IMG/VR virus record: IMGVR_UViG_3300027801_000200
Location: 1-20,755 of that record
Reading direction: 5' to 3' (one strand)
DNA length: 20,755 nucleotides
Origin: a virus
Shown here: piece by piece, positions 1-19,643 of the stretch
Numbering within the stretch: position 1 is the stretch's first letter
Layout of the letters: every line of letters begins with the position of its first letter
Notes under the pieces: generated by a model
Seen by the model: only the letters and a program-made list of their open reading frames with translations
The model's database searches: none
What the model was told of the DNA's origin: nothing
Program-made: the position numbers and the translations under genes

Positions 1-1243
1 TTACAGATGCTCCTATCTTACCTTCATATGCTAATTGTCTTGCTTTACCAAGATTTATATTCTTACCTAACATTGCACCTAATTCTAATTCCTTAGTAAT
101 AGATGATTCGAAATCTAATAGAGAATCTGTAACACCGGTCATTGTAGCCATATTAACACCAAGTTTCCCTGCTGCAACTGCGGCTATTCCTATATTCTTT
201 CCTCCATCTGAACCATATTCTGCGAATGCTTTTGCAGAACCAGCAACATCTGCCATTACTTGAGATGGCATTAATCCATTTGCGATAGCTAATTGTTTTG
301 TAGATTCTGCTAAGTTTTGTGCCGTTTCTACACTACCACCGTTTAATCTTGCAAAGTTACCAGTTAATGCGGCCGCTTCAGTTCCACTAATACCCATGTT
401 CGTTGCCATGAGGTTAGTGTTAAGTTGAGTTTGAAATGATAAATCACTTAACCCACCAAATTCAGCCGATAATCCTTTAGCAGTATCAAGTGCTTGTGGA
501 AATATGGTTGATAATAAAGATACCTGGGATGTTGCTCCAGTTAAACCACCAACAAAACCACCCATTTCACGAGTTGTCTTACCAAGTACACCCGCTACTT
601 TTCCAATTCCAATAATTATAGAGCCTACTATTGCTGATGTACTTTGAAATACATCCTCAAGTGTTTTTAGAAACCCACCCGATATATTATTAAGTGTATC
701 AAATGCAGAAATTTGATTAGATAGAGTTTCCTTTTCCTTTTTAGACATTTTAGCAATATCTTGTGCAAATCCTAATTGCCTTTCCATACTTGCAACTATT
801 TCCGAGTCTTTACCCAAAATAGCTGCAGCTATATCTATTTGTTCTTTTAGTGATTCGGTTTTTGCCAATACTTGCTCTACATCATCTGAATTTAATTCTG
901 ATAAACTTCGTGTGTCTTCAAGTATAGTTGAAATTGCACTTTGTTGTGCTTCATTTAAGCTACCCATTGATTTAGTAGCAGTTACAGATTCCATCTGTGC
1001 TGTACTAAAATCTTTAAAATGAGATGCGATTGATTGTGTTCCTTTTTCTAATTCACCTATGAACTTTTGATTACCATTGTTAATCTCCTTAAGTCCACTT
1101 GCAAGTTTTTTAATTTTTTCGTTTTGTTTATTTAATGACACAGTATAGTCATTACCAGATTTTTCTTGTTGATCAAGTAATTTCTGATATCGTATTTGAG
1201 CTTTTTCAATAGCTTGTAAAGCTTTTAATCTATCTGCTGCCAT
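1..1243 (-). CDS. Tail tape measure protein, N-terminal part (runs off the window)
   Basis: The ATG at 1243-1241 opens a frame that stays open for 414 codons to the window edge, so the C-terminus is missing. An AAGGA stretch lies 9-13 nt upstream. Residues 1-60 are charged and helical (MAADRLKALQAIEKAQIRYQ), typical of a coiled-coil start. Around residues 200-218 there is a Gly/Ile/Val-rich hydrophobic segment (IVGSIIIGIGKVAGVLG), followed by a Gly/Ala/Ser/Thr-rich stretch. This mix of long helices and hydrophobic segments is characteristic of tape measure proteins, which set tail length inside the tube and help DNA entry. It follows sheath, tube and tail chaperone genes, the usual tail order. 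I see no catalytic motif. The call rests on composition and gene order rather than on a diagnostic motif. Confidence 0.78.
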   Translation of the reverse strand, partial: MAADRLKALQAIEKAQIRYQKLLDQQEKSGNDYTVSLNKQNEKIKKLASGLKEINNGNQKFIGELEKGTQSIASHFKDFSTAQMESVTATKSMGSLNEAQQSAISTILEDTRSLSELNSDDVEQVLAKTESLKEQIDIAAAILGKDSEIVASMERQLGFAQDIAKMSKKEKETLSNQISAFDTLNNISGGFLKTLEDVFQSTSAIVGSIIIGIGKVAGVLGKTTREMGGFVGGLTGATSQVSLLSTIFPQALDTAKGLSAEFGGLSDLSFQTQLNTNLMATNMGISGTEAAALTGNFARLNGGSVETAQNLAESTKQLAIANGLMPSQVMADVAGSAKAFAEYGSDGGKNIGIAAVAAGKLGVNMATMTGVTDSLLDFESSITKELELGAMLGKNINLGKARQLAYEGKIGASV

Positions 1244-1252
1244 TTATAATCC

Positions 1253-1471
1253 TTATCTTACTTTATGTGTATAACCCTTAAGTTGACTTCTTAATTTTTC
1301 AGATTCCTTATTAACTCTATCCATTTGTTTTTGTATTTCAGGTGGGAATCCTTTTTGTTTAGCTTTCTTTAAAGCAATATTTGTTGAGTTTGTTTTCAAT
1401 CCATCAAAAAATGCATCAGAAAACTTTTTAGCTGCTCCAAACAATCCTTCGTTGATTTCTTTTTTAGCCAT
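1253..1471 (-). CDS. Small basic protein of unknown function upstream of the tape measure gene
   Basis: This 72-residue ORF starts at ATG 1471-1469 behind an AGGAT ribosome-binding-like site and ends 9 nt before the tape measure start, so the two are probably co-transcribed and translationally linked. The protein is rich in Lys and Glu and looks helical, with a possible amphipathic segment around residues 10-25 (FGAAKKFSDAFFDGLKTN) and a charged helix around residues 45-65. I do not recognise the family. It opens its own transcription unit, after a terminator at 1512-1544 and a promoter-like motif at 1497-1508. Its position between the tail chaperone and the tape measure suggests a role in tail assembly, but this is inference from context only. 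Confidence 0.7.
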   Translation of the reverse strand: MAKKEINEGLFGAAKKFSDAFFDGLKTNSTNIALKKAKQKGFPPEIQKQMDRVNKESEKLRSQLKGYTHKVR

Positions 1472-1511: not shown

Positions 1512-1544
1512 CAAAAAAAAAGTGAAGAATTTTACTTCTTCACT
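1512..1544 (-). terminator. Rho-independent terminator overlapping the end of the chaperone extension ORF
   Basis: On the minus strand a perfect 9-bp stem (AGTGAAGAA paired with TTCTTCACT, bases 1536-1544 and 1521-1529) with a 6-nt loop is followed by a run of nine Ts. The last codons of the ORF ending at 1532 form one arm and its TAA stop lies in the loop, so translation to the stop would cover the hairpin until the ribosome releases. Confidence 0.88.
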
Positions 1545-1765
1545 CTTACATTTGGACTTCGTCCTCCCTTTTTCTTGGAAGACTTATCGTGTTCTTCTTT
1601 TTCTTTTTTCTTGGCATCTAATAACTTCTTGAAATAGAAGTTTCTCCAATGAATTGGCATGAAGTAAACTTCTGACCAAGTAAATCCATTACCATAGTTA
1701 ACCATTTCCCAAATCTGAGAATGTAGTTGTGCAGAGTAGTTACTCGGAAGGGTAAAAAAACCCAA
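1532..1765 (-). CDS. Frameshift-expressed C-terminal extension of the tail assembly chaperone
   Basis: This reading frame overlaps the 3' end of the 254-aa chaperone gene in the +1 (equivalently -2) frame. It is open from 1780 to 1535 and has no ATG near its beginning. The only early start would be a TTG at 1765, with no Shine-Dalgarno sequence at proper spacing. Residues around IWEMVNYGNGFTWSEVYFMP form a hydrophobic and aromatic block with WSEV and MP, followed by a basic Lys-rich tail. That layout resembles the second-frame domains of frameshifted tail chaperones such as lambda gpGT and P2 gpE', which bind the tape measure protein. Slippage at the T7 run (1754-1760) would fuse 73 residues to the first 250 of the upstream protein, giving about 323 residues (+1) or 324 (-2). 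Independent initiation at TTG or at an internal ATG (residue 21) cannot be excluded. Confidence 0.7.
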   Translation of the reverse strand: MGFFTLPSNYSAQLHSQIWEMVNYGNGFTWSEVYFMPIHWRNFYFKKLLDAKKKEKEEHDKSSKKKGGRSPNVRVKK

Positions 1766-2504
1766 CCCCGAAGGGGATATCTAGTGCCTCCTGTTCACCA
1801 GTAATATCAGATACAAAATTGAATTTCAATTCTAAATCTGGAGTGAATGTTTGAACATACTTTCTAAGAGCTCTGGAATCTCTTGCAAGTAAACTGTTCT
1901 TTACATAATTATTAATAAATCCTCTATCTTCATTACCATCTACCTCTTGTATCATATATCGTAAACGAGTTGATACATCTTGAGATATATTATCACCTTT
2001 AGTTAATCTATTAAGTGCTTGTACTTCAGCATTAATATCAATTTCATCCTTATGTGTTAATAATCTAAATATGATTTTTTTCTTACCAAGTGGCAAATCA
2101 AATTCATATCTGTTTTCTGAATTTAGTGCATCTACATCAATTTCTTTAATCTGTACTGCTGAAAGGTCTATGTTTACTTTTTGTGTTTCTCCAGTAAATG
2201 GGTCATTCACTTCTACATGATAATCTTTTCCATATCCTAAGATACGAGTTGCTAAAAGAATTGCATTCTTATCACCAATGAATATATCATTAACATTTAC
2301 ACCAGTACCAACAACAACTGATTCAAATAATTTATCAAGTACAACACCTTTTTTTATTAAATTTTGTGAGGCTAATATATCTTCTTCTTTAGCCGTCATA
2401 TACTTTATTTCAATTGAACCCTTTGATAAAGGACTAGATTCAGGATAAAGTTTACCCTGTGATGGAAGATCTATTACTTCCGTTGGAAAATCGAATTTTG
2501 CCAT
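1740..2504 (-). CDS. T4 gp26-type baseplate/tail assembly chaperone (zero-frame product)
   Basis: The 254-residue protein has the features of the T4_baseplate (gp26-like) family. The N-terminal stretch FPTEVIDLPSQGKLYPESSP is followed by IEIKYMTAKEEDILAS (residues about 30-50), a pattern I recognise from T4-like marine phages. The rest is an alpha/beta body with a Thr-His-Lys-Asp-Glu motif (LLTHKDEIDI) near residue 150. Proteins at this position, next to the tape measure gene, act as chaperones that keep the tape measure soluble while the baseplate hub and tube assemble. No Shine-Dalgarno sequence is obvious upstream of the ATG at 2504. The last codons, GGG TTT TTT TAC, run through a T7 tract where the frame can pass to the ORF ending at 1532. 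Family assignment is from memory of motifs; the exact gp26 equivalence is less certain than the chaperone role. Confidence 0.8.
   Translation of the reverse strand: MAKFDFPTEVIDLPSQGKLYPESSPLSKGSIEIKYMTAKEEDILASQNLIKKGVVLDKLFESVVVGTGVNVNDIFIGDKNAILLATRILGYGKDYHVEVNDPFTGETQKVNIDLSAVQIKEIDVDALNSENRYEFDLPLGKKKIIFRLLTHKDEIDINAEVQALNRLTKGDNISQDVSTRLRYMIQEVDGNEDRGFINNYVKNSLLARDSRALRKYVQTFTPDLELKFNFVSDITGEQEALDIPFGVGFFYPSE
1754..1776 (-). promoter_or_regulatory. Putative programmed ribosomal frameshift site with UUCG hairpin
   Basis: The coding strand carries a small hairpin, CCC closing a UUCG tetraloop with GGG (1775-1766), then TTGGG and a run of seven Ts (1760-1754). Zero-frame codons are GGG TTT TTT TAC. 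A P-site tRNA-Phe on TTT can re-pair one base forward (+1) or two bases back (-2) with perfect TTT pairing. Either shift enters the frame of the ORF ending at 1532. The two frames overlap for only about 39 nt (1780 to 1742), and the T7 run lies inside that window. Confidence 0.65.
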
Positions 2505-2610: not shown

Positions 2611-3099
2611 TTAGAATTCTAAGATAGCGTAATCATAAGATAATGTCAATGTGATTTCTGCTGGGTCATTTGAACTCCAATCTAAATCATTAAACACTGC
2701 ATTGTTGATAAATGCACCTTTAAGAGTCCATTGTTCAATCTTATCACCAACTGGTCCTAATAGATATATTTGTACATCTTTCTTATAGAAATCTGCATAT
2801 CCATCTCTACCTGTAATAGATTCATGTGATGTTCTCACCCATTCCATTACTGATTGAGCTCCACTTGGAACGATTGGGTCAAATAATGTAATTTCTACAT
2901 CTTGCCATTCTCCCTTACCTTTTAATTTACGTTTAACGTTAATGTGGTCTAGGGTAATAGTTTCAAACTGAATTGAAGGTCTATTTGCTGTTTTTATTAA
3001 ATATGAAGGGATACCATCGATTTCCATGATGAATCTATTCTTCATCTTTGGTTCGAAATTGGTATAAAACATATCGTTAAATTCTAATACTTCTGCCAT
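2611..3099 (-). CDS. Tail tube protein (T4 gp19-like)
   Basis: At 162 residues this matches the length of T4 gp19 (163). The N-terminus FYTNFEPKMKNRFIMEIDGI, followed by SYLIKTANRPS, is the typical start of T4-like tube monomers. The middle has the expected beta-strands, WQDVEITLFDPIVPSGAQSV, and the end, ITLTLSYDYAILEF, is the closing strand of the family. The protein polymerises around the tape measure to form the inner tube inside the sheath. The ATG at 3099 has a good AAGGAG site 9 nt upstream. It follows the sheath gene by 54 nt, the conserved gp18-gp19 order, and is followed by a strong terminator, consistent with a high-copy structural gene with its own mRNA end. Confidence 0.95.
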   Translation of the reverse strand: MAEVLEFNDMFYTNFEPKMKNRFIMEIDGIPSYLIKTANRPSIQFETITLDHINVKRKLKGKGEWQDVEITLFDPIVPSGAQSVMEWVRTSHESITGRDGYADFYKKDVQIYLLGPVGDKIEQWTLKGAFINNAVFNDLDWSSNDPAEITLTLSYDYAILEF

Positions 3100-3153: not shown

Positions 3154-5520
3154 TTATGCCGTAAAAGATGCCCCAGTCGGTAAGATGTTGAAATCTAACA
3201 CGATGAATTCGGCAGTTTTAGTTGGTTGTAAGAAAATCTGTCCAGCCAATATGTTTCTGTCGATTACATCTGGTGTGTTATTACTCTCATCCATTACCAC
3301 CCTAAATGCATACAATCCTTGTCTTTGTTGTATTCCTTCTAAATAAGGATTCACAGTATTTAAGAATTTACCTCTTGTTGTAGAAGTATTTTGTTCAAAT
3401 ACTAAGTATCTTGATGTAGAAGCTATATACTTCTTAACTTTAATCATCAATCTTCTAACATTGATTCTATCAAGTGCCGATGCTTTATCTTGAAGTGTCT
3501 TTTGTCCAAATGCTACGATACCTTCTCCAGGGAACTGAGCGATTGGATTAATTTTTCCTTCATATAATTCATCTCTTTCAGCGTGTGTTAATCTGTTTAG
3601 TACAGATATAGCACCTACTATACCACCTCTATTTAAACCTGCTGGTGCAAACCATTCGGCTGCAACTGCATCGTTAGAAGCATATATCCCAGGCATCAAT
3701 ACTGATGGTGGAACTGAAATAAGTTTATTTGTTCTTGAATCAATTGTTTTAACCCATGGGTAGTATGTACCTACGTAGTTAGAATCAATTGCTGCACCTT
3801 GTTCGATTGCTTGTGATATAGTATCAGAAGTTGTTTGTGATGTTCCACTATTATAAGTTACACCCACAACGTCTCCGATGAAGAATGCATCTTCTCTAGC
3901 TTCACACATATCAACAACTTTATCAAATACATAAGAATGATGTCTTCTTACGATTCCAGGTACAGATACTAAATTAATATCAAAATCATCTGGGTTAGAT
4001 ACTGAGTTGATTGCTTTTACATATGCAACAGAACCAACAGAGGTTGAAGTGGATAAATCAAATCCTTGTGAGTTTCCACTACCAAAGTTTGCAGATGAAC
4101 CAGCCAACGCGATTTCAGTAGTTGGAGATATACCATCGAATCCATTTTGGAATCCAACAACAAATTGTCTTTTGTTTATATCTTTTGATAAAGAACCAGT
4201 CAATTCATATCCAAAGGCTTTAGTACCACCTTTTATAGTTACAGTTCCATCAAAAGCAAATACAGTATTACTACCTTGTGTTGCTGATGCAGGAATTACA
4301 GATAAGTAATTGTTATTATCTATCTTAACTTGTACAGTTTCTAAATCAATACCACTATAAGCAACTGCTTTAGAAGCGTTGTTTACATCAGAACCAGTAG
4401 AGAATATTACTGCAGGTACATCAGATTCAGATAAACTACCACCCATATAAATTGGATTGTAATATTTAGCGTGTGCAAATGGTCCAGCAACAAGAGGGAA
4501 TGAACCTTCAGCTGAAGTTTCAACTCTTATATACTTAGAACGATTTGGATAATCACCATTTTCTGTTTGTTTACCGTTTGCATCAATTACTAAGTTTCTA
4601 TCACCAATTACTTTTTTGATGTAGTTAGGAGATGCAGGGTCTAAGTTAACATTGTTATATGTTTCTAATACAGTTTTTCTTTTATCAGTATCTTTATACT
4701 CTCTAATAGCTACTGCGAAAGTTGCGTAATCAGTAGAGTTGTTAGAACCAGCTGGTTTAACGTTAAAGATAGATACTTTATATTCTTTATTATAGTTAGA
4801 ACCATCACCAAGAGTATGTATCTTGAATAGGTTATGTCTTTCTCCTGAAATCAATTGAGATTGAATCCATGGAGTTGAAGCGTTTTTAATATCTTGAGTA
4901 ATGTCTTGATTAGCTAATTCAACTACTTCAAGTCCATCAAATCCTGCAGTAACTTGAGTTGCTGCTTCACTTTCAAAATAATTATATACATAAGAACTTT
5001 TAATACCTCTTGGGTTTGTTCCGAATACATCACCTAAATCATTTCCCTTAGTAGGGTCAATAGATGAAGATATTACAGAAGAACCACTTACTGTGATATT
5101 AAATTCCGATGAACTTACTGGTCCTTGTGTTAAAGTAGAACTAGCTAAACCACCTACTCCTAAGTGGGTTTCAAATAATGTTCCTATTACAGTTCCATGT
5201 TTTGTTGAATCTGAGCTACTAATTGCTATAGCTACAGGTACTGTTTGTGTGTAACCACCTGTTTGACCGACACGAACAATAGTTACTGTTCCTGCTTCTC
5301 TTAGGTAGTTTTGTACGGTATATCCTGTATAGTAAGAACCATCAGGTGTACCGAAAATCTGTTCGAATTCCGATTGGGTGTTTACAACGGTTGGTACGAA
5401 GGCTGGGCCCTTTTTGAAAGGTCCTATTACAGCTGCTCCTATTTCTCCAATACCTTGTGATAAGAAAGAAAGGTCATTTTCTCTCGTAAATACTCCAGGT
5501 GATACAATTTTTTCTGCCAT
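3154..5520 (-). CDS. Contractile tail sheath protein (T4 gp18-like)
   Basis: The 788-residue protein has both conserved ends of the T4-type sheath family. The N-terminus contains VSPGVFTRENDLSFLSQG, then AAVIGPFKKGPAFVPTVV and FEQIFGTPDG (residues about 8-60). The C-terminal domain contains RGGIVGAISVLNRLT, QFPGEGIVAFGQKTL and INVRRLMIKVKKYI (residues about 625-700), and ends in strands that interlock sheath subunits. Sheath hexamers stack around the tube and contract to drive it into the host. It is longer than T4 gp18 (659 residues). The extra length lies in the variable middle, rich in Ser, Gly and Thr, which in this family forms surface domains. The ATG at 5520 has an AAGGAG site 10 nt upstream. 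Tail tube follows immediately, as expected. Confidence 0.96.
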   Translation of the reverse strand: MAEKIVSPGVFTRENDLSFLSQGIGEIGAAVIGPFKKGPAFVPTVVNTQSEFEQIFGTPDGSYYTGYTVQNYLREAGTVTIVRVGQTGGYTQTVPVAIAISSSDSTKHGTVIGTLFETHLGVGGLASSTLTQGPVSSSEFNITVSGSSVISSSIDPTKGNDLGDVFGTNPRGIKSSYVYNYFESEAATQVTAGFDGLEVVELANQDITQDIKNASTPWIQSQLISGERHNLFKIHTLGDGSNYNKEYKVSIFNVKPAGSNNSTDYATFAVAIREYKDTDKRKTVLETYNNVNLDPASPNYIKKVIGDRNLVIDANGKQTENGDYPNRSKYIRVETSAEGSFPLVAGPFAHAKYYNPIYMGGSLSESDVPAVIFSTGSDVNNASKAVAYSGIDLETVQVKIDNNNYLSVIPASATQGSNTVFAFDGTVTIKGGTKAFGYELTGSLSKDINKRQFVVGFQNGFDGISPTTEIALAGSSANFGSGNSQGFDLSTSTSVGSVAYVKAINSVSNPDDFDINLVSVPGIVRRHHSYVFDKVVDMCEAREDAFFIGDVVGVTYNSGTSQTTSDTISQAIEQGAAIDSNYVGTYYPWVKTIDSRTNKLISVPPSVLMPGIYASNDAVAAEWFAPAGLNRGGIVGAISVLNRLTHAERDELYEGKINPIAQFPGEGIVAFGQKTLQDKASALDRINVRRLMIKVKKYIASTSRYLVFEQNTSTTRGKFLNTVNPYLEGIQQRQGLYAFRVVMDESNNTPDVIDRNILAGQIFLQPTKTAEFIVLDFNILPTGASFTA

Positions 5521-5964: not shown

Positions 5965-5982
5965 GTTAAATTATTATTTAAC
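5965..5982 (-). repeat. AT-rich inverted repeat spanning the Hint-protein stop codon
   Basis: GTTAAAT and ATTTAAC form a perfect 7-bp stem with a 4-nt loop, and the TAA stop at 5978-5980 is inside one arm. The bases that follow on the coding strand (GTTTATTAAAAAAC) lack a clean U-tract. It may be a weak terminator or an mRNA 3' structure, but in such AT-rich DNA it could be chance. Confidence 0.3.
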
Positions 5983-7288
5983 TAACCGTAAATGTTAAAG
6001 TTGCAGAGTATGCACTTACCAAACCATTTGTTGAATATTGTCTTACTCTTGCATATCGTGTACCCGTTCCTATATCAAAAGTACCACTATCTGTTGTTGT
6101 TACAACTGAAGTTGCTGACCATAGTGTTTGACTAACTAATGTTGATGAGAAATCTGAATTATTATCTATCTGTACATCATATACATCATTTGTACCATCT
6201 CCTGACCAAGAAAGTGTAAGAGTACCATTCGTCCAAGCTAATGAAGTTGGTACAGCACCTGCAGTTTCATCAGTATGTGAATTACCACCTTTATTGTGAG
6301 TTATATATCCATTAACTAAATAAGTATCATTTGTTTCAACATCAATAGATACTATCTCTGATGTTTGATTTATAATATCAATAGATATTACATCAATTTC
6401 AGTAATAACACCAGAAACTTCTTTAATTAATTTATCGTTTGTAGTAATGTTAAACATTTCTTTGAATCTATATTCTCCATCATTACCATCTTTAACTAAC
6501 ATTGGGTGTTCTGCAGTTGCAGTTATTTCACCATCATTAATATCATAATGTCTACCTGAAAAAGAATATACTAAATTTACAACTTCCACATCTTGTGCAG
6601 TTGTTGTTAATGAATCGGTTGACCAATCTAAGAAACCACTTTCTTCAGTTCCTAATCCTCCAATTGAAAATCCTCTCAATACATCTCCTTCTTCTAAATC
6701 ACCAACTTCTACAATAGTACCATCTGATAATGTTACAGGTGAATCTATTGTTAAACATAATGCGGTTGAGTTACCATCATATGAATCTACAGCATAAACA
6801 GTTTTTGTTCTAGCTGAATTGTAATTTGTGGCATGATCATTAAAACCATCTGCAAAAGTTCCACTAAGTGTATGTGATTGTGCACCTAATAAAGTTGTTT
6901 GGTCACTTGCTCCTTGTGGATTTACTCCACCAACTGTAATTACAGCGGATACATCTTGATTTGCAGCAATACTTAAAAAACCAGCAGTAGATGCTGAAGA
7001 GTTGTAAGTAGGAGTAACTGACCATGTGAAATTTTGATATCTAGATGAAATTGATCCAAACTTAGAACCAGCTACGGTAAAACCAAGTGTATAAGTTTCA
7101 TTTGTAGCTTCAACTGCATAAGTATATCCATCAATTGAACCAACGGTATCGATTCCATAATCATCTAATTTTACAATAGTTCCTGCTGAACTATTTATTG
7201 CGTTTAATGATACATTTGCACCTTGTGTAATACCGGTTGCTCCTGCTAAATTATTTAAACTAAGTGTATCTCCTGAGACTCTTGCCAT
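5978..7288 (-). CDS. Tail structural protein with internal Hint (intein-like) domain and C-terminal Fn3-like domain
   Basis: The 436-residue protein has three parts. Residues 1-177 are a Ser/Thr/Gly-rich beta region like phage surface proteins. Residues 178-332 (bases 6757-6293) are a Hint domain. It begins with Cys178 in CLTIDSPVTLSDGTIVEVGD (block A) and carries TAEH at 258-261 in ATAEHPMLV (block B). It ends with VNGYITHN, His331-Asn332 (block G). At about 155 residues it is mini-intein sized, with no room for a homing endonuclease. The residue after Asn332 is Lys, not Cys, Ser or Thr, so canonical splicing is not expected; a cleaving bacterial intein-like activity is more plausible. Residues 347-435 (WTNGTLTLSW, YDVQIDNNSDF, YARVRQYS) resemble a fibronectin type III domain. 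An AGGAAAG site lies 8 nt before the ATG. The upstream neighbour is the glycosyltransferase. Confidence 0.85.
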   Translation of the reverse strand: MARVSGDTLSLNNLAGATGITQGANVSLNAINSSAGTIVKLDDYGIDTVGSIDGYTYAVEATNETYTLGFTVAGSKFGSISSRYQNFTWSVTPTYNSSASTAGFLSIAANQDVSAVITVGGVNPQGASDQTTLLGAQSHTLSGTFADGFNDHATNYNSARTKTVYAVDSYDGNSTALCLTIDSPVTLSDGTIVEVGDLEEGDVLRGFSIGGLGTEESGFLDWSTDSLTTTAQDVEVVNLVYSFSGRHYDINDGEITATAEHPMLVKDGNDGEYRFKEMFNITTNDKLIKEVSGVITEIDVISIDIINQTSEIVSIDVETNDTYLVNGYITHNKGGNSHTDETAGAVPTSLAWTNGTLTLSWSGDGTNDVYDVQIDNNSDFSSTLVSQTLWSATSVVTTTDSGTFDIGTGTRYARVRQYSTNGLVSAYSATLTFTVS

Positions 7289-9819: not shown

Positions 9820-12800
9820 TTAAGATATTTTACTTTTCAATTCCTCTATTTGTATTTGTTGTTCTTTAATAGCTTCTATAAGTAATCCAGTAAGTTTGGC
9901 GTAATCTACACCCTTAAATCCATTATCTCTATCAATTACCAACTGAGGAAGTACTTTTTCTACATCTTGTGCAATTACACCAACATTTGGTAATGTTTGT
10001 TGTAATATATCAGCGTTTGAATTCCAATCCCAAGTTACACCTTTTAATTGTTGTACTTTTTCTATTGGGTTTGAAATTAATTCAATGTTATCTTTTAATC
10101 TTTCATCTGAAGATGCATATGCTACAATATCTCCACCTACGTTCAATGCTCCACTTATACCAACTCCACCAGTCACTATAACTGCTCCGGTTGTTTTAGT
10201 TGTAGAAGCGGTTGTGTTAGAGAATGTTTTAGCTCCACTTAATGTTTGTGTTCCACTTAAGTGTGCCGTATTTGTTGATAAGTATGCATCTGCGATAACA
10301 CTACCTTGCCATACACCACTTGAAATTGTTCCAACTTCTGTGATATCTAAAGCATTTATATCAGCTTTTGTTTGGTCAGCAGTTGCAGAAGTTTCAATAC
10401 CATCTAATTTAGTATTATCGGCTGAAGTAAAGTTTATCTGTGTTAATCCACCATCTCCTACTGAATATGTAGTGTTGGTATTAGTAGTATATGAAGGTAA
10501 ACCAAATGAACCATCGTGTTTTAGGAAATGTCCTGCAGTTCCTGCTGATGGAACGAAATTACTATTTCCAGTTCCAACAAGAGTTCTTATTTGAGCTGCT
10601 GTTTGGTCAGCGGTTGCTGATGCTTCAATAGCATCTAATTTAGATTTTAGAGTAGTTGTAAAGTTTTGTTGTGTTAAACCACCCGCACCAACAGTAGCTA
10701 ATTGAGAAGTTAATGCAACTGTTCCTGTTGTATCTGGTAATGTTATTGTTCTATCAGCTGTTACACTTCCTGCAAGTAATGTTACTTCATATGCATCTGC
10801 CGCGTTTCCTTCAAATATCACACCGTTACTTGTTGATACAGTTGCTACATTATTTGTAGTTGTTGTACCGGTTACGGTTATACTACCAGGGAATGTGATT
10901 GTATCAGATGAATCACCGATTGTAGCGGCACCACCTAAAGAAGCGTTTAATGCAGATTTAACATCGGCCGTTGTTGTAGTATTTGTGTTGGCCGTCATAT
11001 CATCTGCAACTAAATCAATAGTTCCATCTCCATCTACATATGTAGCAGATATTCTTGTTTCGGTGTTTCCACTAAACATAGCACCTACTATATCTTGTAC
11101 TGCTTCAGTTGATAACTGAGTATTTGTATCCGTATTAGTAGTATATGAAGGTAAACCAAATGAACCATCGTGTTTTAAGAAATGTCCTACTGTTCCAGCT
11201 ACTGGTACGAAATTACTATTTCCAGTTCCTACTAAACTTCTTATTTCAGCTGCTGATTGGTCAGCGGTTGCTGAGGTTTCAATTCCACTTAATTTAGTGT
11301 TTAAAGCTGAAGTGAAGTTAACATCCGATTGTGTTGCTACTACGAAATCAATATCACCAGTTGTATCTTGATAAGTTACAGTTATTCCTGTCTCAGTTCC
11401 ACCTAACATTCCACCAACGAAATCTTCAACTTGTTCTTGTGATAGTTGAGTGTTTGTATCCGTATTAGTAGTGTATGAAGGTAAACCAAAAGTACCATCG
11501 TGTTTTAGGAAATGTCCTACTGTACCAGCTACCGGTACAAAGTTACTATTTCCAGTTCCTACTAAAGTTCTTATTTCAGCTGCTGATTGGTCAGCCGTTG
11601 CTGATGCTTCAATAGCATCTAATTTAGATTTTAGAGTAGTTGTAAAGTTTTGTTGTGTTAAACCACCCGCACCAACTGAGTACGTTGTGTTTGTATCCGT
11701 AGAAGCAATTGTACCTCCAGCAGAAATAGTAACATTTGTACCAGCGGTTAAAGCAGCAACTACATTAGTTGAATCCGTTACATCTGCTGATGCTTCGATT
11801 GCATTTAGTTTTGAATGGTCAGCATCTGTAAATGTATTTGAATCTGTACCAGCTTCAACGGCTGCTACAATTTCTGCATTTGATTGATCTGCCGTAGCAC
11901 TTGCTTCAATTGCATTTAGTTTTGAATGGTCAGCATCTGTAAAGTCATTGGTAGTTAATCCACCATCACCAACTGAATATGTTGTATTGGTATTGGTAGT
12001 ATATGAAGGTATTCCGAATGTTCCGTCATGTTTTAAGAAATGTCCTGCTGTTCCTGCTGATGGAACGAAATTACTATTTCCAGTTCCTACTAAAGTTCTA
12101 ATCTCTGCTGCTGTTTGGTCAGCCGTTGCAGAAGTTTCAATACCATCTAATTTAGTATTATCTGCCGATGTAAAGTTAATTTGAGTTAATCCCCCATCAC
12201 CAACAGTAGCTAATTGAGAAGTTAATGCAACTGTTCCTGTTGTATCTGGTAATGTATAAACTCTATCAGCAGTTAATCCACCGGCCTTTAATGTTCCTTC
12301 GAAATCATCAGCAACTGTTCCTTCAAATATAATTCCATTAGAAGTACTAAGTGTTTCAATGTTTTCTGTTGTTGTTGTTCCAGTTACTACTAAATTACCA
12401 GCAACTGTAATTGTATCAGATGAATCACCGAATGTTGCAGTTCCACCTAAAGAAGCGTTTAATGCAGATTTAACATTTGCTGTATCCGTTACATCTGCTG
12501 ATGCTTCGATTGCATCTAATTTAGATTTTAGAGTAGTTGTAAAGTTTTGTTGTGTTAAACCACCAGCTCCTACTGAGTACGTTGTATTTGTATCCGTATA
12601 ATTTCCACTATGTAAATTAGTAGCACCTTGGTCTGTTGTCCAATCAATATGTTCGTTTCCTACAAAACCAGTTGTACTATCATGTGTTATTTGTACTGAA
12701 CCACTAACAGTTCCACCAGGTAATGAAGTTAATACATTTGCTGCATCTGTTACATCTGCTGATGCTTCAATAGCATCTAATTTCGATTTTAGAGTAGTTG

Positions 12801-14571
12801 TAAAGTTTTGTTGTGTTAAACCACCCGCACCAACTGAATAAGTCGTGTTTGTATCCGTAGAAGCAATTGTACCTCCAGCAGAAATAGTAACATTTGTACC
12901 AGCGGTTAAAGCAGCAACTACATTAGTTGAATCCGTTACGTCTGCTGATGCTTCGATTGCATCTAATTTAGTATTATCGGCTGATGTAAAGTTAATTTGT
13001 GATAACTCTCCATCTTGAATAGAATATGTTGTATTCGTATTTGTTGTATAAGAAGGTAAACCAAATGTACCATCGTGTTTTAAGAAATGTCCTGCTGTTC
13101 CTCCAGCAATTCCTAAATTTGTTCTTGCAGTTCCAGCATTTGATAAATCAGATAAGTTACTTGCTTTTGCTAATTTTGTTCCTACTGTTGTTGTTAATGC
13201 AACTACATCAGAATCTCCGTTTGCAATACTTGCAGAAATTTCTAATAATGTATCATAAGCTGCAGGTGCTCCACCTAGTAAATCAGATACTTCTCTTTGT
13301 ACATAAGCAGTTGTTGCTATTTTAGTAGAGTTATCATTATCAGCTTGTGTTGGTGCAACTGGATTACCAGTTAATGTTGGTGAAGCTAAATTAGCTTTTA
13401 AATCCAATGCAGTTTGACCAGCAGTTGAAACTGGTTTTAAAGCATCTGTTGTATTATCTACATTACCTAATCCAATATCACCCTTTGTTAATTCTCTTGT
13501 TGCAACAGTTCCGTTTGCATCTGTTACAAGTCCACTCGTGTTCGTTGTTATATTAATATCTAAATCTGATATTATAGTTGCCCCTGTCAATGCAGTTGTA
13601 TCGATATCTACAGCATCACCAGCTAAGTTAGTTGGTAAGGTATAATTTACTGTTCCTGCAGCATCAACTCCGATTGTAGTTCTAACACCACCAGCAGTTG
13701 TATCATCTAAAATAGTTTGTGCGAATGTTGAAGCAACTTGGTCTGAACCTGATACTACTCCTGCTGGAAGAGAAGTTAATACATTTGCTGCATCTGTTAC
13801 ATCGGCACCTGCTTCAACTCCTGTGGTTGCACCAACTGTTAAACTTGCTGCTGTTCCACTAATATTTGTACCAACTAATGCTGATGGTGTTCCTAAAGCT
13901 GGTGTTACCAATGTTGGTGAACTTGATAATACTACATTTCCTGTTCCTGTTTTAGTTGTTACTCCTGTTCCACCTTGATTAACAGCTATCGTAGTTCCTT
14001 GCCAAGTACCAGTTCCAATTGTTCCAACTGATGTAATTTGTGTTTGAGCTGCATCTACACTTAAACTGTGAGTTGTACCTTCACCACTTGTTGCGGCGGT
14101 TGAAGTTATTCCAGTTCCACCAGTAATTGTTCCTACATAATCACCAGTTGTGTCGGTTGTTAATACTACTGAATTTGCTTGTATGGTTGCAACTCCCCCA
14201 GCTGCTATTACTACATCTCCACTTATATTTCCAAATACACTATCTTCTAAATTAGAAAAAGTTACTTTCTTTTCTGTTCCAGCATCACTTATAACTAAAT
14301 TATCTCCTTGTGCAATCGTAGCTCCACCAAGAGAAGATAGTGCATCTATATTAATTGCCGATACTCCAGTTAAACTTGAACCATCTCCTACAAATGAACC
14401 AGTAAATGATCCAGAATAATTTACCGCTGGTTGAATAGATTGGTCAACTCCACTTGAATTTAAGGTTTTTGTTTCAAGAGTACCGTTTTCTACGGTTAAG
14501 CTTATTAAATTTCCATTCTCATCAGATGGAAATTGAAGTGAGCCTGAAATTTTGGGGTTATGTATAATCAT
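9820..14571 (-). CDS. Giant repetitive tail fibre protein with C-terminal S74-type intramolecular chaperone
   Basis: The 1583-residue fibre starts MIIHNPKISGSLQFPSDENG with GDGSSLTG at residues 62-69. It contains tail-fibre blocks such as GTGTWQGTTIAVNQGGTG and ASPTLTGNPVAPTQADN. The centre repeats two modules. One is ADQxAAEIRTLVGTGNSNFV followed by AGHFLKHDG and PSYTTNT (four full copies and one partial). The other is GAGGLTQQNFTTTLKSKLDA (four copies). A VTGTTTT module occurs twice. Residues about 1486-1583 match the peptidase S74 domain: SSDERLKDNI, then WDWNS, GVIAQDVEKVLPQLV and a final helix. Such domains trimerise and fold the fibre, then cleave themselves off. Ser1488 and Lys1493 have the Ser-x4-Lys spacing of the reported catalytic dyad. 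The mature fibre would therefore be about 1490 residues. Receptor specificity cannot be read from sequence. Confidence 0.9.
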   Translation of the reverse strand: MIIHNPKISGSLQFPSDENGNLISLTVENGTLETKTLNSSGVDQSIQPAVNYSGSFTGSFVGDGSSLTGVSAINIDALSSLGGATIAQGDNLVISDAGTEKKVTFSNLEDSVFGNISGDVVIAAGGVATIQANSVVLTTDTTGDYVGTITGGTGITSTAATSGEGTTHSLSVDAAQTQITSVGTIGTGTWQGTTIAVNQGGTGVTTKTGTGNVVLSSSPTLVTPALGTPSALVGTNISGTAASLTVGATTGVEAGADVTDAANVLTSLPAGVVSGSDQVASTFAQTILDDTTAGGVRTTIGVDAAGTVNYTLPTNLAGDAVDIDTTALTGATIISDLDINITTNTSGLVTDANGTVATRELTKGDIGLGNVDNTTDALKPVSTAGQTALDLKANLASPTLTGNPVAPTQADNDNSTKIATTAYVQREVSDLLGGAPAAYDTLLEISASIANGDSDVVALTTTVGTKLAKASNLSDLSNAGTARTNLGIAGGTAGHFLKHDGTFGLPSYTTNTNTTYSIQDGELSQINFTSADNTKLDAIEASADVTDSTNVVAALTAGTNVTISAGGTIASTDTNTTYSVGAGGLTQQNFTTTLKSKLDAIEASADVTDAANVLTSLPGGTVSGSVQITHDSTTGFVGNEHIDWTTDQGATNLHSGNYTDTNTTYSVGAGGLTQQNFTTTLKSKLDAIEASADVTDTANVKSALNASLGGTATFGDSSDTITVAGNLVVTGTTTTENIETLSTSNGIIFEGTVADDFEGTLKAGGLTADRVYTLPDTTGTVALTSQLATVGDGGLTQINFTSADNTKLDGIETSATADQTAAEIRTLVGTGNSNFVPSAGTAGHFLKHDGTFGIPSYTTNTNTTYSVGDGGLTTNDFTDADHSKLNAIEASATADQSNAEIVAAVEAGTDSNTFTDADHSKLNAIEASADVTDSTNVVAALTAGTNVTISAGGTIASTDTNTTYSVGAGGLTQQNFTTTLKSKLDAIEASATADQSAAEIRTLVGTGNSNFVPVAGTVGHFLKHDGTFGLPSYTTNTDTNTQLSQEQVEDFVGGMLGGTETGITVTYQDTTGDIDFVVATQSDVNFTSALNTKLSGIETSATADQSAAEIRSLVGTGNSNFVPVAGTVGHFLKHDGSFGLPSYTTNTDTNTQLSTEAVQDIVGAMFSGNTETRISATYVDGDGTIDLVADDMTANTNTTTTADVKSALNASLGGAATIGDSSDTITFPGSITVTGTTTTNNVATVSTSNGVIFEGNAADAYEVTLLAGSVTADRTITLPDTTGTVALTSQLATVGAGGLTQQNFTTTLKSKLDAIEASATADQTAAQIRTLVGTGNSNFVPSAGTAGHFLKHDGSFGLPSYTTNTNTTYSVGDGGLTQINFTSADNTKLDGIETSATADQTKADINALDITEVGTISSGVWQGSVIADAYLSTNTAHLSGTQTLSGAKTFSNTTASTTKTTGAVIVTGGVGISGALNVGGDIVAYASSDERLKDNIELISNPIEKVQQLKGVTWDWNSNADILQQTLPNVGVIAQDVEKVLPQLVIDRDNGFKGVDYAKLTGLLIEAIKEQQIQIEELKSKIS
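10484..12132 (-). repeat. 137-bp fibre-module direct repeats (four copies)
   Basis: Copies at 10484-10620, 11138-11274, 11468-11604 and 11996-12132 are all exactly 137 bp and start with GTAGTATATGAAGG or a close variant. They encode the AAEIRTLVGTGNSNFVP...HFLKHDG...PSYTTNT module. A partial fifth copy begins near 13043 and diverges after about 13106. Spacing between copies varies because other modules are interleaved. Confidence 0.85.
11600..12962 (-). repeat. 205-bp near-identical direct repeat pair
   Basis: Segments 11600-11804 and 12758-12962 have the same length and differ at only about five positions by direct comparison. They encode a LTQQNFTTTLKSKLDAIEAS module together with the VVAALTAGTNVTISAGGTIA stretch. 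Such near-identity suggests recent duplication or gene conversion within the fibre gene. Confidence 0.85.
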
Positions 14572-15290: not shown

Positions 15291-18200
15291 TTATTTTTCT
15301 ATTTTTCTTTTCAATTCATCAACTTCTTTCGATAAATCCTTAATACCCTCAATTAATAATGAAACCAATTTATCATATTTAACTGCTTTATATCCATCTT
15401 CACGAGTTTGTACTAATTCTGGTAAGATTTTTTCAATTTCTTGAGCAATTACACCATAATCTTTACCTTTATAAATATGTTGTTTTTCAGTATTCCAATC
15501 AAAAGAATACCCTCCAATTTTATTTATTTTTTCAAGTGGGCTGGTAATTGGTAAAATATTGTTTTTTAACTCTCTATCTGATGATGAAAATGCAATAATA
15601 TCATCGGTTGCTTTTATAGTTCCAGTTACATGAATATCATCTGATATATTAAATCGTGTATTTGCATGATTCCAAGTAATTGATTCATTAGCTCCTGCTA
15701 TTTCGATACCTGCACCATCGGCGGTTGCTGAATCTGTTGAACCACTTGCAACTGTTATTAATTTATCTTCTATCTTAAGGTCTGAAACATTTATTGCAAC
15801 AGAATCACCAAGTACAGTTAAGTTTCCACTAATTACAACATTACTTAATGAAGCACTTGCGAAAGTTACATCTGAAGTTGTTGTTATTCCTTGATTAGAA
15901 GCTCCTAAGTATCCCCATTGTGTTGCTGAGATTGTGTTTGTACCAATAGCTGCTATTTGAGTAGCCTCACCACTTGTTAATGCAACTCCTTGTACACTTC
16001 CAACAGTTAATGAATCAACATTACCACTTAAATCACCACCTGCTGCTATTTGAACAGAACCACTAAAGATTCCTCCTTTAATATTTGCAGTTATATTATT
16101 TGTAGTTCTTATTAAATCAATATTTGCAGTATCACCGAACGTTAATACATTTTCATGAGTATCACCTTCTAAAGTATCTATTCTATCATCAAGTGATGTA
16201 CTTACAGCAGAGAATCCAGTAACTGAATTTATTTGTACTTGAGATGAACCACTTACTGTTCCTGCTGGAAGTACTAATTCAACTCCTTCTTGGAAGTGTA
16301 CTGAACCAGTATCTAATGATAAACTTCTATTTGTATCAATAGTACCACCACCACTTAAACCTTTACCACTGCCAAGAGTAATTGATGAGTGGTCAATATG
16401 TTCGTTTGCTACAAAGTTTGTAGTTGAATCATGGTCTACTTGAGAAGAACCACTAATTACACCACCTTTTAAGTTTGCAGTTAATGTATCTCCAGTTAAA
16501 ATCATATCAACATTAGTTGTATCAGATACTGCTAAATTTGTTCCACTTGAAATATCAATTGTTCCAGTTAAGAATGAACCACTTACAGATTCAATTGCAG
16601 TTAATCTTTGGTCTTGTACTCCTTGTTCAGTTGATATAGAACCTGTTTCAGTTGATAAGAAACCTAATCTTGAATCTTGTACTGCAGTTGCAGTAATTGC
16701 AGATGCACTATAAGAGTTTAATGATTCGTTAGATACTGTTGAGTTTGCTAATTGAGCTGAACTACTAACAGTACCAGTTGGTAAATGGTCAATTACTTGT
16801 TGAGAACCTGAAACTGTTCCTGAAGGTGCACCAGCTGCTGAAACTCCATTTACAAAGTGAGCTGAACCAGTATCAATTGCAATAACTATATTACCAGTAT
16901 TACCATATGCACCAGCATCACTTGTTCCTTCTTCTGTGTGTATTAAACCTGTCGTAGTTGGTGATATTGTTGTTGTAGAGTTTACTGCTGTAATATCTCC
17001 AGCACCTGCGGCAACTAAAGCATCATTTACAGCTTTTGTTGTTGGTACAGAGTTAGGGTCATCTGCAATAGAAGCAGATACTGCATAAAATGCTGATGTT
17101 CCTAGTGTTCTTTTCTTAAATAATCCTCCTACGTTAAATAATGCATCGTAATCAGATGAACCACCCGATGCAACACTTGAAAGTGTTAATGTAGTGAATG
17201 TTGGTGAGTCACCAGTTTGTAAACCAGTATCAACATCAGTATTTGCTCCATTAATTGTAGCTCGTACAGTACCTTGTGTTGGTGAACTAAATGTAGAACC
17301 ACTAATTATTCCTCTCTTATCTAAAGAAGAACTAAATCTTGTTTCTGAATAGTATAAATTAGTACCTTCTGTTAAATCACTTGTAGTTGATGTTCCTAAG
17401 AAAGAACCACTATGTACATTATCTGCATCAGTTTTTAATTTTACCAATGCATCTGTATATCCAACCTTTGATGTGTTGGCTATAATAGCAGATGCTTGTC
17501 CACCAGTTATAGTTGTTGGTATTCCTGTAATACTTGAATAAGTTACTTGAGATGAACCACTAATTACTGTTTCAGCATCTAATTTTGTTTTTACTCTTGC
17601 ATCTGTATAATAAAGGTTTGTATTTTCGGATAAGTTTGCGGTAGTTGATGTTCCTAAGAATGAACCACTATGTACCGCATCTGCATCTAATTTTGTTTTT
17701 ACATTACTATCGAAATTAGTTATTGTATTTGCATTTACTTGTACAGAACCTGATATTAATCCTACATTATCTATTTGTTTTCTTACATCAGCTATCCAAC
17801 CAGTTGTTTGGTCAGCATCTACTTGAGATGAACCACTAACTATTCCATTACCAATTGATTCATATCTTGAATCTAAATCACCAGTAACTTGAGATGAACC
17901 ACTAATTACTGTTTCGGCATCTAATTTTGTTTTTACTCTAGCATCTGTATAATAAAGGTTACCAGCTTCGGTAACTTGGTCGGTATCAATACCTGTTAGT
18001 TCCCCACCTTCTCCTTTAAATCCTACTGATGAACTTACTTTTGCATCTAATACGAAGGAAGTTGTATTGTGATCCCATTGTAATGATTTACCAGCACCAT
18101 CTATCTCGATACCAGCACCATCAGCAGCTGCTGAATCGGCTGAACCACTTGCAACCGTTATTAATTTATCTTCAATTCGTAATTCTGTTGTTGAGATTTC

Positions 18201-19643
18201 TGTTGCATCTCCTAAAACAGTTAAATCTCCTGTCACCGTAACATTACCAGTAAACGAACCAGTATTAAATGTTACATCTGATGTTGTTGATAAATTTTGA
18301 TTTATATTATCAAGTTGAGTTTTGTTTGAATGTGAATGAGATACATTACTTAGTAAATCTAATCTACTATCTATTGATGTAGAAAGTGGCCCTTCTATTG
18401 TATCTAATCGAGTATCAACTGAAGATGAAAATGTGGTAAAAGTTTCGTTTGATGATGAAAGAATTGTACTTCCACCTAATATTTGTATTGAACCACTTAC
18501 TACACCTCCTTTTAAGTTTGCGGATATACTACCATCATTGATAATTATATCAACTTGATTAGTATCAGTTGATGCAGAAACTATATCGTTATTTATTCCA
18601 CTAAGTGATGAATAATTTACTTGAGATGAACCACTAACTATTCCGTTACCAATTGATTCGTAAGTGGAATTTAGAGAAGAGGTTATTACTTCTACTTGGT
18701 CTAATCTACTATCTAAAGATGATGTTACTGTTTCTAAAATTACACTTTTTGCTTCTTCTATATCTAATCTACTATCAAGTGAAGAAGTTACTGTTTCTAA
18801 AATTACACTTTTTGCTTCTTCTATATCTAATCTACTATCGTGAGATGCTGATGTTAGTTCTAAGTTATCTAATCTACCATCTTGTGAACCAGTATCAGTT
18901 TCTAATTGACCAACTCTACTATCAAGTGATGAAGTAGTTGATTCTAAGTTATCTAATCTATTATCTTGTGAACCAGTATCAGTTTCTAATTGACCAATTC
19001 TACTATCTAAAGATGATGTTACTGTTTCTAAAATTACACTTTTTGCTTCTTCAACATCTAATCTACTATCTAAAGATGATGTTACTGTTTCTAAAATTAC
19101 ACTTTTTACTTCTTCTATATCTAATCTACTATCTACTGATTGTGAGTAATTAGTAAAATTTGTTACTGAGGATGAAAGTATTGTACTACCAGGAAGTGAT
19201 ATAGATTCAATTGAAGCACTTACTACTCTTATATCTAAATATCTTTTTGATGGAGTACCTAAAGTAAATACTGCATCTGCAGTTGGGAGGAACGAACCAC
19301 TAAATGATGAATTAATACTAACATTATCGGATGAATTATCTCCATCTCCTAAGAAAATATTACCGGCCAATACAATGTTTCCACCGATGGTTGCATCTCC
19401 TGTTGTTTCTATACTCGATGCATAGATATCTCCACTTGCCGATATATGTGAACCTGTAATATCTGACAATAAATGAAGTGAACCACTATTTGATTCATTT
19501 AGTTTTACAAGTATCTTAGAGCTCGTGTTTGAGCCACTACCATCACCAATAACAATAGTTTCAAGTGATGTATTATAGAACAATTCAGATTCCTGAAGTG
19601 ATGTGAATGAAGTTCCTCTTCTTAATTTTAGTATTGCAGCCAT
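15291..19643 (-). CDS. Long tail fibre with coiled-coil shaft and C-terminal S74-type intramolecular chaperone
   Basis: The 1450-residue fibre begins AAILKLRRGTSFTSLQESEL. Residues 171-326 are a coiled coil of nine units ending in SxD or SQD (units such as SRLDIEEAKSVILETVTSSL), 21 or 14 residues long. The rest is beta-rich fibre sequence with about a dozen SGSxQV motifs, three NLYYTDARVKTKLDAETVIS-type blocks, and two copies of an IEDKLITVASGS...GAGIEI module. Residues about 1351-1450 are an S74-type domain: SSSDRELKNNI, FDWNTE, YGVIAQEIEKILPELV, then a helical end. This domain drives trimerisation and is normally removed by autocleavage at its Ser-Asp. Ser-x4-Lys spacing is present (Ser1355, Lys1360). 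The Shine-Dalgarno sequence is weak (AGGAA, spaced about 11 nt). A promoter-like motif at 19668-19678 sits after the terminator at 19751-19780. Confidence 0.9.
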   Translation of the reverse strand: MAAILKLRRGTSFTSLQESELFYNTSLETIVIGDGSGSNTSSKILVKLNESNSGSLHLLSDITGSHISASGDIYASSIETTGDATIGGNIVLAGNIFLGDGDNSSDNVSINSSFSGSFLPTADAVFTLGTPSKRYLDIRVVSASIESISLPGSTILSSSVTNFTNYSQSVDSRLDIEEVKSVILETVTSSLDSRLDVEEAKSVILETVTSSLDSRIGQLETDTGSQDNRLDNLESTTSSLDSRVGQLETDTGSQDGRLDNLELTSASHDSRLDIEEAKSVILETVTSSLDSRLDIEEAKSVILETVTSSLDSRLDQVEVITSSLNSTYESIGNGIVSGSSQVNYSSLSGINNDIVSASTDTNQVDIIINDGSISANLKGGVVSGSIQILGGSTILSSSNETFTTFSSSVDTRLDTIEGPLSTSIDSRLDLLSNVSHSHSNKTQLDNINQNLSTTSDVTFNTGSFTGNVTVTGDLTVLGDATEISTTELRIEDKLITVASGSADSAAADGAGIEIDGAGKSLQWDHNTTSFVLDAKVSSSVGFKGEGGELTGIDTDQVTEAGNLYYTDARVKTKLDAETVISGSSQVTGDLDSRYESIGNGIVSGSSQVDADQTTGWIADVRKQIDNVGLISGSVQVNANTITNFDSNVKTKLDADAVHSGSFLGTSTTANLSENTNLYYTDARVKTKLDAETVISGSSQVTYSSITGIPTTITGGQASAIIANTSKVGYTDALVKLKTDADNVHSGSFLGTSTTSDLTEGTNLYYSETRFSSSLDKRGIISGSTFSSPTQGTVRATINGANTDVDTGLQTGDSPTFTTLTLSSVASGGSSDYDALFNVGGLFKKRTLGTSAFYAVSASIADDPNSVPTTKAVNDALVAAGAGDITAVNSTTTISPTTTGLIHTEEGTSDAGAYGNTGNIVIAIDTGSAHFVNGVSAAGAPSGTVSGSQQVIDHLPTGTVSSSAQLANSTVSNESLNSYSASAITATAVQDSRLGFLSTETGSISTEQGVQDQRLTAIESVSGSFLTGTIDISSGTNLAVSDTTNVDMILTGDTLTANLKGGVISGSSQVDHDSTTNFVANEHIDHSSITLGSGKGLSGGGTIDTNRSLSLDTGSVHFQEGVELVLPAGTVSGSSQVQINSVTGFSAVSTSLDDRIDTLEGDTHENVLTFGDTANIDLIRTTNNITANIKGGIFSGSVQIAAGGDLSGNVDSLTVGSVQGVALTSGEATQIAAIGTNTISATQWGYLGASNQGITTTSDVTFASASLSNVVISGNLTVLGDSVAINVSDLKIEDKLITVASGSTDSATADGAGIEIAGANESITWNHANTRFNISDDIHVTGTIKATDDIIAFSSSDRELKNNILPITSPLEKINKIGGYSFDWNTEKQHIYKGKDYGVIAQEIEKILPELVQTREDGYKAVKYDKLVSLLIEGIKDLSKEVDELKRKIEK
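18666..19136 (-). repeat. Tandem coiled-coil repeat of 63- and 42-bp units in the fibre gene
   Basis: Four 63-bp units (21 aa, core RLDIEEAKSVILETVTSSLD) and five 42-bp units (14 aa, such as SRIGQLETDTGSQD) alternate in blocks. In protein order the lengths are 21, 21, 14, 14, 14, 14, 21, 21, 14. All are multiples of seven residues, so every unit keeps the heptad register. Confidence 0.9.

Follow-up and report, generated by a model that had tools for sequence, protein, structure and literature searches.

The window, the whole stretch of 20,755 nucleotides of viral DNA analysed here, carries a gp26-type gene whose product is a tail chaperone predicted in two forms, and the long form was attributed to a +1 frameshift on a phenylalanine slip site. 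On the sequence evidence, a probability of approximately 0.85 was assigned to this reading. Most ribosomes would terminate at 1742-1740 and release the short form of 254 aa. A minority, with tRNA-Phe on UUU in the P site, would slip +1 onto UUU (UUC in some relatives), bypass the stop and append a helical tail of about 75 aa from the +1 frame. Refolding of a small hairpin in the wake of the ribosome would probably favour the forward slip. The roles of the two forms were assigned by analogy with lambda G/GT, in which case the short form would wrap the tape measure protein, and recruitment of the tube protein would fall to the tail. We infer the occurrence and rate of the frameshifting, the role of the hairpin and the binding partners.

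The coordinates of the features are summarized in Table 1. The gp26-type gene was located between an upstream tail tube gene and a tape-measure-like gene. Its frame-0 product matched PF12322 (E 4e-9, 36.9 bits against a Pfam cut-off of 24.5) and PHROG 150, which is annotated as baseplate hub (E 2e-12). A tape measure is annotated at the corresponding place in Flavobacterium phage immuto, and a long ORF lay within 600 nt downstream of the tail ORF in 85/95 representatives. No family match was obtained for the intervening 72-aa ORF in Pfam and PHROG searches. The PF12322 match and the conserved frame and slip site support the original prediction, in which the gene was described as a gp26-like, T4-type tail chaperone likely extended by +1 or -2 frameshifting.

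Table 1. Positions of the chaperone gene, its frameshift elements and neighbouring genes in the window.
Feature	Positions	Strand	Basis or remark
Start of long gene, probable tape measure	2..1243	minus	Position and length; runs off the window
Small ORF, 72 aa, between chaperone and tape-measure-like gene	1253..1471	minus	ORF list
+1-frame extension, putative tail domain FFTLPSNYS...RVKK, 75 aa	1532..1759	minus	Conservation, purifying selection, predicted helices; stop 1534-1532
Frame-0 ORF, gp26 type, predicted short chaperone form, 254 aa	1740..2504	minus	PF12322, PHROG 150; stop TAA 1742-1740
T7 slip site (putative), frame 0 TTT TTT T(AC)	1754..1760	minus	Sequence; Phe re-pairing in relatives
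Upstream hairpin CCCCTTCGGGG, candidate stimulator	1765..1778	minus	5 bp, pairing inward from A1778-T1765; loop CTTC 1773-1770
gp19-type tail tube gene, directly preceding the gp26-type gene	2611..3099	minus	PF06841, E 3e-11
Tail sheath gene	3154..5520	minus	PF17482 and PF04984; PHROG 23

Several other features of the window were observed. The motif TATATTTATATAnGAACAAA precedes two window genes on the minus strand (1490-1506 and 2518-2534), and TATTTATA was found at most 60 nt upstream of 61/76 gp26-like starts in relatives. The TATATTTATATAnGAACAAA/TATTTATA motif may function as a late promoter; in sequence, the TATTTATA-type motif is the T4 late TATAAATA in reverse complement. A Peptidase_S74 intramolecular chaperone domain forms the end of each of two long, repetitive, fibre-like proteins (9820-14571 and 15291-19643, minus strand). 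A 436-aa ORF (5978-7288, minus strand) contained a stretch that looked Hint/intein-like by eye (CLTIDSPVTLSDG...YITHNKGG), and no Pfam match was found for it at E 0.001.

The frame-0 reading on the minus strand ends ATC CCC TTC GGG GTT GGG TTT TTT TAC CCT TCC GAG TAA. The second frame was open from 1780 to its stop with an offset of +1 (equal to -2), never -1, and the two frames overlapped by 38 coding bases and the stop. Within the window's own genes, a +1 frame open for at least 219 nt was found at 0/4959 positions, and hence chance was excluded as the source of the open second frame. Starts in this frame were limited to a TTG at 1765, which precedes the slip site, and an ATG within the conserved domain. 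The hairpin ended 4 nt before the T-run. The ORF analysis thus confirmed three elements of the original prediction, namely a second frame overlapping the end of the gp26-type gene, its lack of a good start, and seven Ts preceded by a hairpin within the overlap.

The conservation of this arrangement was evaluated in 187 loci that reach the gene end, the window included, which were collected from IMG/VR, cultured phages and uncultured phage genomes via protein searches. The +1 frame was open for at least 90 nt beyond the stop in 179/187 loci; among those with a shorter frame, the contig end truncates L008, L072, L106, L168 and L170. The second frame and the overlap, whose conservation had been proposed as a check, were kept. 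The +1 frame was also kept in 11 further contigs from bacterial or archaeal genome bins, in several cases of Bacteroidota. IMG/VR scans with the SP-15, RM378 and GXN1 proteins yielded almost no new loci. SP-15 and GXN1 were left out of the tail profile, which nevertheless found their +1 ORFs in genome-wide searches (E 1.5e-3 and 1.1e-4). Single-base codon differences in the tail ORF were synonymous in 73% of cases against 21% expected, and third positions were the most variable. From this pattern of substitution, the tail ORF is under purifying selection.

A tail ORF translated as a separate gene, from its own start or by reinitiation, was considered very improbable. In immuto and SP-15, truncated ORFs inside the tail region have been annotated as genes, as would be expected of such a gene, but the conserved tail residues precede any start codon. 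No conserved start codon was found for the tail ORF among 95 representatives; the first ATG lay at codon 17 or later in most of them and was absent in 15/95. In 21/95, a +1-frame stop stands 2 nt before the T-run, so that the frame can be entered only at the run. A fixed +1 frame would also be unneeded for a separate gene. The original prediction had named homologues with a clean ATG as evidence against frameshifting, and these were found in L099 and L104 only. In both, the tail ORF has become a separate gene in the third frame and starts at an ATG directly behind the gp26-like stop, the slip site has changed and the +1 frame has been lost. Hence, these two loci support a link between the slip site and the +1 frame and do not refute frameshifting. 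Two distant members, L085 and L191, carry the extension in the -1 frame with the heptamer U UUU UUC.

The original prediction allowed a shift of +1 or -2 and excluded -1. The exclusion of -1 stood, and natural variants decided for +1. T7 was the commonest slip site among relatives. The Phe-Phe slip site was kept, and T7 itself was broken in part of the family: the longest T-run was only 3 or 4 in 44/160 unique sequences keeping the +1 frame. The variants include TTC TTT TGG, TTC TTT TAC, TTT CTT TGG and TTT CTA TGG. In 159/160 unique sequences, a Phe codon would permit re-pairing following a +1 slip, and the sole exception was L104, the locus described above. Either of the two codons may be the one that slips: TTC TTT T requires the second codon and TTT CTA requires the first. 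The A-site codon was TAC in the window and mostly TGG or TAC in relatives; UGG and UAC are non-stop and not obviously slow, a point against +1 slippage.

A -2 ribosomal frameshift on the T7 run would give ...GFFFTLPSN, and the necessary re-pairing of tRNA-Phe is feasible where the T-run reaches at least 6, as it does in 115 unique sequences. It is impossible in the 44/160 short-run sequences, including L014 (TTC TTT T), which was placed by the gp26 tree within a supported set of 29 sequences whose other 28 members, the window among them, have T7. In CTT variants a Leu tRNA might wobble-re-pair after -2, and the TTC TTT variants have no such escape. If the RNA polymerase lost one U of U7 with the help of the hairpin, in the manner of the Roseiflexus insertion sequence, the right frame would likewise be restored, and the hairpin upstream of the T-run reproduces the Roseiflexus layout (PMC5009743). 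Such transcriptional slippage depends on a conserved homopolymeric run, whereas the short T-runs were found in relatives that keep the frame; moreover, the Roseiflexus stem is adjacent to its run and a gap of 3-4 nt separates stem and run at most T7 sites. The slip type changed 10 times on the gp26 tree with the +1 frame kept. The broken T-runs, the Phe re-pairing and the placement of L014 favour +1 P-site slippage, and only a slight chance was left to the -2 shift and, equally, to transcriptional slippage.

The hairpin was examined against synonymous-codon shuffles. In 95 representatives, the 27 nt before the run folded more stably than the shuffles (mean z -0.90), and windows further upstream gave mostly near-zero z. 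A stem score of at least 12 was reached in 69% of sequences versus 35% of shuffles, with the commonest stem end 3-4 nt before the run, and these hairpin statistics are inflated by kinship among the sequences. The stem sequence varied by clade (for example CGCATCC/GGATGCG in L083, GACATT/AATGTC in L053), and some clades had no stem (L150, L170, L181 and L084). Wobble-wobble covariation of the stem was 65% versus 54%, and the tree-aware count of stem pairs was 5.6 same versus 0.1 opposite (median p 0.03); some control pairs also reached low p, which leaves the covariation short of decisive. The comparisons with shuffles indicate that the hairpin is under selection on average, although it is non-universal. 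The predicted position of the hairpin upstream of the slip site was correct and selection was seen family-wide on average, but the window's own copy was individually not significant (p 0.11). A second folding signal beyond synonymous shuffles was observed in relatives between +36 and +63, counted from where the T-run starts (mean z -0.75); the stretch from +9 to +36 is dual-coded, which makes the synonymous-shuffle folding test unreadable there.

In vitro, +1 shifting by 70S ribosomes is stimulated by a stable hairpin adjoining the E site (PMC6321510), and the hairpin of the window family, where it occurs, lies in the corresponding position. In these synthetic stimulators, an engineered 12-bp stem refolds next to the E site, whereas the stems of the window family are natural, mostly 5-8 bp, and candidates for such a function. 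The anti-Shine-Dalgarno is hidden in Bacteroidia ribosomes (PMC9976891), and an SD-like 4-mer was found at 7/76 gp26-like starts; together, these would fit a hairpin that replaces the Shine-Dalgarno duplex, a reading that depends on hosts known for the cultured phages only. No AGGAGG-like sequence was found before the run in the window, where a G-rich stretch occurs. Bacteroidia prfB genes retain SD-like +1 sites (PMC8710568), and hence a hidden anti-Shine-Dalgarno alone does not force the hairpin solution.

The structure of the short form was predicted with an AlphaFold pLDDT of 91. Its best solved match was the HK97 tail assembly chaperone 2ob9 (Z 5.7 over 78 residues, next 2.7), and the Foldseek probability was only 0.35. 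The tail domain was predicted to form three helices (pLDDT 78); the two domains were folded separately. Sequence searches of Pfam, PHROG and PDB found nothing significant for the tail domain. The viral models that resembled it in structure were weak matches (E 0.2 and up), one being a 'tape measure chaperone' of phage Moogle.

T4 gp26 and gp51 both score as PF12322 members in Pfam, like the window gene, and no direct link between the window family and either protein was found by hmmsearch or hhalign. As predicted for the window family, T4 combines a short form with a longer form, gp51, that carries an extra C-terminal tail. A gp51 tail profile aligned in register with the +1 tail at an hhalign probability of 3.7%, which is weak and above all 60 shuffled controls. 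T4 uses two genes, whereas a single gp26-family gene was found in Mel-JY01, immuto, SP-15, RM378 and GXN1, and the window family has one gene with a +1 overlap. A second weak gp26-family match in SP-15 (E 8e-4, with an internal stop) was taken as chance. In T4, moreover, genes 26 and 51 occupy other places in the gene order, on opposite strands. The +1 frameshifting appears to do the job of the two T4 genes.

Frameshifting in other tail chaperones takes several directions. The lambda G/GT and P2 E/E' chaperones shift -1 and the window family would shift +1; the tail chaperone shift of phage Mu is -2. A place between the tail tube and tape-measure-like genes and a startless second ORF overlapping in another frame, as in the lambda G/GT type, are also found in the window family, and the -1 slippery heptamer typical of that type, although not universal in it, occurs only in the distant L085 and L191. 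The tail chaperone of the haloarchaeal myovirus HSTV-2, an archaeal virus, very likely shifts +1 (PMC5009743), as proposed for the window family. The original prediction had listed the Listeria PSA tail chaperone as a +1 case, which was incorrect; the +1 shifts of PSA occur in the capsid and tail-shaft genes (PMC5009743). The prfB (RF2) site CUU_UGA resembles the site proposed for the window family in its P-site +1 slip, and the immuto-type CUU_UGG differs from CUU_UGA in the last base only. However, the A site of prfB holds a stop codon and a Shine-Dalgarno-like element lies approximately 3 nt upstream, whereas the A-site codon of the window family is a sense codon.

T4-like chaperone genes were reportedly identified by Vladimirov, Gautam and Davidson (2022), and the mechanism proposed there was reportedly not frameshifting. 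Parts of the present finding may therefore be known already. Where that work is cited in PMC10885494, the T4-like chaperones appear as a short gene and a longer fused gene, and in a citing passage of PMC12846349 it is credited with -1 signals of the poly-T kind in T4-like phages. In a major review, Atkins et al. (2016) describe the G-T frameshift as conserved among long-tailed phages 'except T4' (PMC5009743). A +1 shift in the gp26 family, its slip-site variation and its upstream hairpin were not found in the literature searched, in which the 2022 study was known via citations.

Frameshifting, and in the rarer +1 direction, appears to be used by many phages whose gp26 gene is of the T4 type. 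A broader reading is tentative and rather doubtful as a whole: a natural +1 shift would be stimulated by an upstream hairpin replacing the Shine-Dalgarno duplex, in phages of hosts with a hidden anti-Shine-Dalgarno (probably mainly Bacteroidota), and a single chaperone family would produce its two isoforms by four different routes (+1 shift, -1 shift, split gene, and two genes in T4). If true, the finding would correct the annotation of many phages in which the tail domain has been missed or truncated, and it would provide a large natural collection of +1 shift sites that lack an A-site stop. Furthermore, upstream hairpins as natural +1 stimulators would become directly testable.
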